Source: Ammoniphilus oxalaticus (GTDB taxonomy: Bacteria; Bacillota; Bacilli; Aneurinibacillales; RAOX-1). Taken from it: a stretch of DNA of 64,000 nt. This document shows, piece after piece, positions 44,344 through 46,104 of this stretch. Both the position numbers and the translations under genes were made by a program. Numbering within the stretch: the stretch's first letter is position 1; each line of letters opens with the position of its first letter. The DNA is taken from contig NZ_MCHY01000009.1 of the NCBI RefSeq assembly GCF_003609605.1, forward strand, positions 489,058 to 553,057, read 5' to 3'. The notes below the pieces were generated by a model. It made no database searches, was not told the origin of the DNA, and saw only the letters and a list, made by a program, of their open reading frames with translations.

Positions 44344-44427
44344 CATTTTACCGTTGTCTTTTTTGGCATAACTATCATTCTAGAACATATAAATCATAGA
44401 AAAGCTAGAATGAGGGGGACGAGTAAC

Positions 44428-44886
44428 GTGCTAAATAACAATAGTGTGGTACGGATGGCAACGAAACAAGATGTGTCGGCGATAGTGAAACTTTTAGAAC
44501 AGGGTAAACTAAACGCAACAGGAATTGAGCAACATATTGAAAACTTTTTAGTTGTGGAACAAACGGAGCCGCGACGGATTATCGGAACAGCCGGCTTAGA
44601 AATAAGCGATGAAAAACGCGGATTGCTCCGTTCACTGGCGCTCGATTCGACCTACCTCGAAGCAAACGCATTAATGGAGTTGGTGAGAATTTTGTTAGCA
44701 TTTGCTGTACAAAAAGGGGTACAAGAAATTTATTTGCTAACACCCTCCACTTCTTTTTTCGAGTTTTTCGGATTTGAGGCGATTGAACACACGGATACGC
44801 CCGCCTCGATCCAACAATCGGCCCATTTTCGACAAGCAAAAACAGACTTATCCACGGTGATGGTCTATCAAACACGAAAAAAGTAA
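44428..44886 (+). CDS. GNAT-like N-acetyltransferase (YwlB-like)
   Basis: The 152-residue product has a degenerate GNAT fold: VVRMATKQDVSAIVKLLEQG at the start, IIGTAGLEISDEKRGLLRSLALDSTYL around residue 55, and FFEFFGFEAIEH near residue 112. The acyl-CoA loop R/Q-x-x-G-x-A is poorly kept, so activity is uncertain. GTG 44428 has GGGGG at 10 nt; the ATG at 44410 overlaps that site. Its place before sua5 corresponds to ywlB of B. subtilis. Confidence 0.75.
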   Translation: MLNNNSVVRMATKQDVSAIVKLLEQGKLNATGIEQHIENFLVVEQTEPRRIIGTAGLEISDEKRGLLRSLALDSTYLEANALMELVRILLAFAVQKGVQEIYLLTPSTSFFEFFGFEAIEHTDTPASIQQSAHFRQAKTDLSTVMVYQTRKK

Positions 44887-44915
44887 CATTTTGTTGAGGA
44901 AAAGTTATGAACAAG

Positions 44916-45066
44916 TTATCCACAGAGTGTTGATAACTTGTTTGTTTATCTACAGGTAAAGAAGTAAATACGTATTTAAAAAGGATTTTGATGGATTATG
45001 ATCAGTTATCAAACGAAAGTATGGCATGTGGATAATGTTGTGGAGGAACAAAAATATTATCCACAA
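44916..45066. promoter_or_regulatory. DnaA-box cluster around the sua5 start
   Basis: Three perfect DnaA boxes (TTATCCACA) occur in 151 bp: 44916-44924 (+), 45027-45035 (-, as TGTGGATAA) and 45058-45066 (+). TTATCTACA at 44946-44954 is a fourth with one mismatch. Two boxes lie inside the first codons of sua5. The first also lies in a hairpin (ACAAGTTATC with GATAACTTGT, 44911-44940) followed by TTGTTT, which may end the GNAT transcript. Confidence 0.78.
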
Positions 45067-46104
45067 CTCGATGAGGCGTCCGCTTTATTGCGCGCAGGTG
45101 AGGCGATCGCTTTTCCGACGGAAACAGTCTATGGATTGGGGGCTAACGCGCTTTCCTCAGCGGCGGTCAAACGCATTTTTGAAGCAAAAGGGCGTCCAAG
45201 TGACAACCCGTTAATTGTCCACATTGCCGATCAGCAAGCTGTTCACCAATTGGTCCGCTCGATTCCTGAAAAAGCGCAGCGGTTGATGGACGCTTTTTGG
45301 CCGGGTCCATTGACGTTGATCTTCCCTAAAAAAGAAGGGATTGCCGCGGAGGTGACAGCGGGTTTAGATTCGGTTGGGATTCGGATGCCTGATCATCCTC
45401 TCGCGCTTGCGTTGATTCGAGCAACGGGTTTGCCGTTGGCTGCTCCAAGCGCTAACCGATCGGGACGACCGAGTCCGACGACCGCGGCGCATGTCGAGGA
45501 AGATTTGCAAGGCAAAATCGCGGGGATCGTCGATGGCGGCGCAACAGGCGTTGGCGTGGAATCAACTGTGCTAGATGTGACGCTCGATCCTCCGATGATT
45601 CTGCGACCTGGCGGCGTGACAAAGGAAGCGCTCGAGCGTGTGGTTGGAAAAGTTGCGGTAGACCCCGCGGTGACGATGCAAGCAGATGAGCAGCCTCGGG
45701 CGCCAGGGATGAAGTATCAGCATTATGCCCCGCAAGCGGAGATGTGGACCGTTGACGCCCCGTCAGTCGAGGCGCAAACGGCGCTCATTCGCGAACGGAT
45801 TGGACAAGCCCGTCGCTCGCTTGGAGACGAAAGCCAAGAGGGCAGTCATCGTGAATTGAAGATAGGTGTGCTCGCGACGACAGAAACGCAAGCCGAATAC
45901 GCGGGAATCGCTGATTATGTCGCTGTATGCGGTTCGCGGCATGACCTGGCGAGTGTCGCTCGCGGCTTGTATGACGCGTTGCGCAGCTTTGATCAGCAGC
46001 AAGTCGAATTCATTTTAGCTGAATCGTTTCCAACGACAGGAGTTGGGGCCGCGATCATGAACCGTTTGAACAAAGCCGCTGGCAATCAAGTCATCCGAGC
46101 CTGA
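44998..46104 (+). CDS. sua5: L-threonylcarbamoyladenylate synthase
   Basis: The 368-residue protein (YwlC) makes threonylcarbamoyl-AMP for the t6A37 tRNA modification. The N-terminal YrdC domain has AIAFPTETVYGLGANA near residue 35, then KGRPSDNPLIVH and APSANRSGRPSPT. The C-terminal Sua5 domain starts after the linker APGMKYQHYAPQA near residue 240. The ATG at 44998 is preceded by AAGGA at about 12 nt. DnaA boxes at its 5' end suggest control linked to replication, as inferred for ywlC in B. subtilis. Confidence 0.93.
   Translation: MISYQTKVWHVDNVVEEQKYYPQLDEASALLRAGEAIAFPTETVYGLGANALSSAAVKRIFEAKGRPSDNPLIVHIADQQAVHQLVRSIPEKAQRLMDAFWPGPLTLIFPKKEGIAAEVTAGLDSVGIRMPDHPLALALIRATGLPLAAPSANRSGRPSPTTAAHVEEDLQGKIAGIVDGGATGVGVESTVLDVTLDPPMILRPGGVTKEALERVVGKVAVDPAVTMQADEQPRAPGMKYQHYAPQAEMWTVDAPSVEAQTALIRERIGQARRSLGDESQEGSHRELKIGVLATTETQAEYAGIADYVAVCGSRHDLASVARGLYDALRSFDQQQVEFILAESFPTTGVGAAIMNRLNKAAGNQVIRA

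Follow-up and report, generated by a model that had tools for sequence, protein, structure and literature searches.

What does a cluster of DnaA boxes do at the start of sua5/ywlC, the gene for L-threonylcarbamoyladenylate synthase? The question arises from a 64-kb stretch of Ammoniphilus oxalaticus DNA (the window, to which coordinates refer unless a genome or locus handle precedes them), whose initial annotation had proposed a maintained DnaA-titrating or DnaA-regulated site linking replication with the t6A modification of tRNA. It bears on how initiation is kept in step in Gram-positive bacteria of the B. subtilis kind, where Hda, SeqA, datA and DARS are missing (PMC13220808; PMC numbers stand throughout for excerpts of the papers). 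The DnaA-box cluster is known as an element, and what becomes newly visible in the present study is the depth of its conservation and its double coding, as boxes and as codons. A literature search turned up no paper that describes in-frame DnaA boxes in sua5 or their conservation, the primary papers on the clusters (Okumura 2012 and Ishikawa 2007) lying outside its reach.

An ordered array of DnaA boxes at the ywlB-sua5 junction

The two strands of the window together contain exactly three perfect TTATNCACA boxes, every one of them reading TTATCCACA. They span 150 bp (44916-45065) and cover the junction between ywlB and sua5/ywlC as well as the first 23 codons of sua5. The latter gene (44998..46104, + strand) was assigned from matches to PF01300, PF03481 and TIGR00057, and a domain search identified a GNAT acetyltransferase at the ywlB position (44410..44886, + strand). 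The upstream array starts with a DnaA-like box with one mismatch, TTATGAACA (44905..44913, + strand), at whose equivalent place all three family relatives carry a perfect box, as judged by eye. Perfect box TTATCCACA follows 11 bp further on (44916..44924, + strand), then, after another 12 bp, the reversed one-mismatch box TTATCAACA (44928..44936, − strand), and finally the one-mismatch box TTATCTACA (44946..44954, + strand), which is the near-perfect box of the initial annotation. Inside the gene a perfect box occupies codons 10-13 (45027..45035, − strand, register +29) and a second one codons 20-23 (45057..45065, + strand, register +59); between them a decayed site with two mismatches, recognised by eye, is found where other species have a box (45039..45047, − strand, register +41). 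The cluster of three perfect boxes and one near-perfect box is therefore as first described, apart from its last box ending at 45065 and not at 45066, and two of the perfect boxes indeed fall inside the coding region, both within sua5.

The A+T content is 69.6% in 44905-45065 versus 52.7% across the window. A promoter scan between the upstream and the in-gene boxes gave no good match and two weak ones, one per strand, with 0.8 expected. Domain searches established the gene order GNAT, Sua5, MntP, low-molecular-weight phosphatase, RpiB and DUF436, which we take to be matched by the order past ywlB-ywlC in B. subtilis.

The number of boxes is ordinary, since 23 of 100 dinucleotide shuffles reach three (mean of 1.67 perfect boxes per 64 kb); their clustering, however, is not. 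When the 135 TTATNCACA of the whole genome were placed randomly, only 2 of 2000 runs produced any triple whose starts fell within 141 bp. A chance origin of the array was rejected on this random placement, on shuffles and on the reversed-pattern counts given below. Several DnaA boxes are thus clustered outside oriC beyond chance, as in a cluster of the B. subtilis type.

Relationship to the ywlC cluster of B. subtilis

In B. subtilis, DnaA binds in vitro to the DNA upstream of ywlC, a region listed sixth with 9 sites and a Kd of 0.25 µM for ATP-DnaA (PMC4447404); the initial annotation was correct in naming ywlC as a DnaA-bound locus outside oriC. The gene is described as repressed by DnaA (PMC4447404, PMC12112137, PMC8203912), and ywlC-lacZ expression is lower in a mutant whose DnaA level is roughly doubled (PMC12112137). 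The fusion covers 240 bp before and 73 bp after the start codon (PMC12112137) and would therefore contain any in-gene boxes placed at the present registers.

Compared with published descriptions of the B. subtilis cluster, the array of the window is its ortholog: it lies at the same ywlB-ywlC junction, shows the same consensus and surrounds the ywlC start with several boxes in both orientations. It differs in belonging to a distant species, in which the array is known from sequence and DnaA binding is putative. In B. swezeyi (locus L134) there are two perfect boxes at sua5 and none in the gene.

Conservation of the cluster across Bacilli

The class draw comprised 398 genomes, of which 371 gave a Sua5 match and 115 were examined in the DNA upstream of sua5: 85 distinct genomes among the better-scoring listed matches (89 rows initially, four repeats being dropped) and 30 later ones from families omitted or thinly covered. 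Each sua5 start was fixed by aligning the protein with that of the window. At least one perfect box is present at sua5 in 84 of the 115 genomes, that is, in 75/85 of the first set, which is skewed to relatives with a similar Sua5 (family f22 contributes 23 of the 85, and f2 and f22 together 34), and in 9/30 of the later set; the other 31 have none. At the level of families, 35 of 56 include a box-bearing genome (29/38 plus 6/18 new ones, summed by hand). From -250 to +120 of sua5 the 85 genomes hold 221 perfect boxes versus a single match to the reversed pattern, and 50 shuffles of these regions gave a mean of 1.34 perfect boxes and a maximum of 4. The box density is 7.1 per kb at sua5 versus 0.11 elsewhere in the loci (89 rows, the four repeats included).

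We also considered 80 named loci, with class labels that we assigned from the names and with at least two of the 80 overlapping the 115 genomes (L114 and L119, which appear to be G067 and G338). At least one box was tallied by hand in 31 of 40 Bacilli and in 0 of 40 others. The bearers include Brevibacillus, Cytobacillus, Niallia, Neobacillus, Lysinibacillus and Virgibacillus, and the nine Bacilli without a box include three Paenibacillus, Sporolactobacillus, Exiguobacterium and Marinilactibacillus. The box-free loci from outside the class are mostly Clostridia, together with other or unplaced Bacillota and one labelled Thermococcus. In a tree of 69 Sua5 proteins, drawn from the 85 and stripped of the tail, presence and absence of boxes require four changes, and seven of the ten box-free rows form one group; the tree was made by a 'quick' method and is unrooted, so that losses are not proved by it.

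The conservation is deep but not universal, and the site is kept in much of the class Bacilli. Its absence from 31 of the 115 genomes and from nine of the 40 named Bacilli loci indicates that the cluster is dispensable. The proposal of a maintained site accordingly stands for the 84 genomes with a perfect box and not for the 31 without; absence from relatives, which had been named as the observation that would speak against it, was encountered in that part of the sample. That different families keep boxes at identical gene borders suggests an old control common to them.

Boxes written in the codons of the Sua5 tail

Counted from the aligned start, the in-gene boxes occur at registers +29 (−), +41 (−) and +59 (+), all three of which start on the third codon position. 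For the 85-genome set, to which the codon and register counts are restricted, register +29 is perfect in 50 loci and has at most one mismatch in 61, the corresponding numbers being 9 and 38 for register +41, and 29 and 53 for register +59. The commonest upstream spacing in these loci is 11 bp (++) and the second 12 bp (+−); the pattern + 11 + 12 − was seen by eye in the window and in three family relatives, with some of the boxes bearing one mismatch. This fixed-register pattern is not class-wide: of the 30 later genomes, G069 is the sole one with a perfect box at +29 or +59, and G087 has Y-P-Q without a perfect in-gene box.

The in-gene boxes encode V-D-[N/K] and Y-P-[Q/H]. Within the first 34 codons of the 85 genomes, 84 of 102 such motifs are exact boxes, where 9.9 are expected. 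Separately, and with expectations derived from each gene's own codon use, this corresponds to 60/73 exact boxes versus 7.55 for V-D-[N/K] and to 24/29 versus 2.36 for Y-P-[Q/H], and the family average (24 families with motifs) gives an exact share of 0.76 versus 0.09 expected. Nearby sense genes outside the cluster, used as a control, have boxes in 3/24 V-D-[N/K] and 3/12 Y-P-[Q/H] motifs. An earlier codon control from long frames on both strands, in which 14/58 and 11/22 are exact, was replaced by these sense genes because antisense frames may pick up the clusters themselves; both controls lower the contrast. The synonymous positions are held as well: V-D-[N/K] sites use GTG in 69/73 and GAT in 65/73 cases, Y-P-[Q/H] sites use CCA in 29/29 and TAT in 29/29, and a T precedes the motif in 68/73 and 24/29 cases, respectively. 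Such a pattern suggests that the DNA sequence of the sua5 tail, beyond the protein alone, is under selection.

The V-D-[N/K] motif is present in the first 34 residues at 61 of the 75 box-bearing loci, being absent from the other 14, and at none of the 10 loci without a perfect box. The Sua5 Pfam domain begins at residue 30 and the in-gene boxes are in the preceding tail; among the five best relatives of solved structure, the alignment starts at residue 22 or 25 in four, whereas in the fifth it starts at residue 6 and has a gap in the tail. Both the Pfam start and the structural alignments thus place the tail largely outside the common fold.

We lean towards the view that the N-terminal tail of Sua5 in much of the class Bacilli is a by-product of regulatory DNA, in which boxes at three registers dictate V-D-N, V-D-N and Y-P-Q, selection for DnaA binding having fixed that part of the protein, and that these boxes would form, with those at tsaD and rlmH described below, an old and position-conserved DnaA-sink system around oriC. 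The converse, in which the protein itself requires the V-D-N...Y-P-Q tail and the codons of the tail give rise to the in-gene boxes incidentally, could appeal to the occurrence of the tail in many species, to the conservation of T-K-x-W ahead of the boxes and to the Y-P-Q of G087. It is nevertheless very improbable, as the synonymous positions and the preceding T are held, the box array extends upstream of sua5, and none of the 10 loci (of 85) lacking any perfect box keeps V-D-[N/K]. In-frame boxes of this kind offer a handle, since synonymous recoding would strip the DnaA sites and leave the protein untouched, and the reverse is equally feasible; they are also a warning that conserved protein tails can mirror selection at the DNA level.

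Companion boxes and position around oriC

Several of the other B. subtilis clusters have their counterparts in this genome, which holds boxes at tsaD (gcp), rlmH (yydA) and oriC; those at trmE are a less certain counterpart. Six perfect boxes are located at the 3' end of tsaD (G000:C9:48414-49021, L005:4415-5022) and three between a CxxH/CxxC protein gene and rlmH (G000:C9:363571-363634, L008:5572-5635), so that companion boxes are present at the gcp/ydiF and yydA equivalents, as in a system of the B. subtilis type. The trmE boxes, one perfect and two with one mismatch, lie inside the gene start, whereas those of B. subtilis are upstream (PMC4447404). The yqeG/sda cluster of B. subtilis has no equivalent: in the genome-wide box list the nearest perfect TTATNCACA is more than 10 kb away from YqeG (C8:229580), although a single cluster need not be accompanied by one there. 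Downstream of the tsaD boxes comes a gene with no confidently assigned family (L005:2437-4647), which these boxes could also serve.

Among 50 Bacilli genomes from 48 genera, 41 have perfect boxes at sua5, 44 have them 3' of tsaD and 30 have them 5' of rlmH, at densities of 7.35, 5.18 and 4.45 per kb, respectively, versus 0.145 in the rest of the loci.

The site had been described as far from an origin gene, which is true within the window; the only DnaA match of the genome (C9:335105), however, is on the same contig as sua5 at about 199 kb, and the site is therefore origin-proximal. Long contigs gave the distances to dnaA for 12 genomes: sua5 is 110-443 kb away, to one side, in 12/12, and tsaD 206-603 kb away, to the other side, in 11/12. 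This placement around dnaA may reflect gene order alone, and G015 and G305, two of the 12, keep the nearness to oriC without sua5 boxes, which makes position weak evidence. In G303 (C1:3054348-3055001) tsaD is on sua5's side of dnaA, the match covering residues 139-355 in an open frame of 1891 codons.

A second or former replication origin at sua5 might also be suspected, since the boxes are ordered and the DNA is rich in A+T. The oriC of the same genome (G000:C9:334942-336753), which carries the same TTATCCACA boxes, has DnaA-trios beside dnaA-dnaN, unlike the sua5 site: a DnaA-trio run is present in the dnaA-dnaN gap and none occurs within 44801-45200. With the one DnaA match 199 kb away, and with B. 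subtilis clusters reported to act against initiation (PMC11019786), an origin here is extremely unlikely. The candidate was rejected because both a DnaA-trio run and a nearby dnaA are absent.

A probable DnaA sink that also represses sua5

The best reading of the array, to which we give a probability of roughly 0.7, is an origin-proximal DnaA sink, orthologous to the ywlC cluster, that also represses sua5. In this mechanism DnaA would bind cooperatively to the ordered array straddling the sua5 start codon (+ 11 bp + 12 bp − ahead of the gene and, in complete cases, − 12 bp − 18 bp + within it). The cluster, about 200 kb from oriC, would be copied soon after initiation, and its early copying would double the DnaA-holding capacity, leaving less free DnaA for re-initiation; occupation of the array would repress sua5 as well. 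We infer both DnaA binding at this site and DnaA holding as its main function. The titrating or regulatory site of the initial annotation, supported by binding and repression at ywlC in B. subtilis and by the conservation in 84 of 115 genomes, survives in this form, although separated from t6A. The proposed link between replication and t6A is not supported in that form, as boxes are also found 3' of tsaD and at rlmH and trmE, of which rlmH serves the modification of rRNA and trmE that of the wobble uridine. Two box sets do flank t6A genes, sua5 and tsaD, and this could result from gene order; the factor common to the boxes at sua5, tsaD, rlmH and trmE is position near oriC. We know of no need for DnaA control of t6A.

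Experiments in B. subtilis bear on this reading from two sides. Removal of six clusters outside oriC leads to early initiation (PMC5295017, PMC13220808). The phenotype is strong only when all six are gone (PMC5295017), and about 10-fold more DnaA causes no over-initiation (PMC13220808), and these two results weaken a simple sink; in the excerpt of a review, moreover, the argument goes against a strong regulatory role (PMC5295017). The datA and DARS loci of E. coli are comparable in that they, too, are chromosomal DnaA-box clusters away from oriC and adjust the activity of DnaA. With IHF, however, datA stimulates DnaA to hydrolyse its ATP (PMC5295017), whereas B. subtilis lacks IHF, datA and DARS according to a review (PMC13220808), and we claim no sequence relation.

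The alternative to be weighed most seriously is a transcriptional switch, in which DnaA represses sua5, and hence t6A capacity, according to the replication state, the holding of DnaA being the by-product. The boxes straddle the start codon in conserved registers, a position that fits gene control at least as well as a sink, and DnaA represses ywlC in B. subtilis (PMC4447404, PMC12112137). The companion boxes, however, are at genes of unlike function, one set being 3' of tsaD, and of the nine genomes without sua5 boxes among the 50, six have at least two at tsaD, as a shared sink would allow; two of the nine have none at sua5, tsaD or rlmH and fit neither the sink nor the switch well. The redundancy of the clusters and their unlike neighbour genes thus favour the sink, and the fixed place around the start codon favours gene control. 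While these considerations give no firm ranking, we regard the switch as a rather unlikely explanation.

Other groups of boxes in the genome

Additional groups of boxes were observed in the same genome. Three perfect boxes lie between two small ORFs (G000:C13:74600-74691, L010:5601-5692), one of which (L010:5176-5523) has no Pfam match, and another three just 5' of a gene for a YifB-family AAA ATPase (G000:C8:464582-464681, L011:5583-5682). On the dnaA contig, two back-to-back boxes make up a palindrome immediately behind a small ORF and the gene for an Alp7A-like actin (G000:C9:368625-368642, L008:10626-10643). Near a contig end, pairs of perfect or one-mismatch boxes 11 bp apart occur three times (G000:C9:701035-702031, L009:9036-10032), adjoining a short ORF that resembles, by eye, an L,D-transpeptidase.
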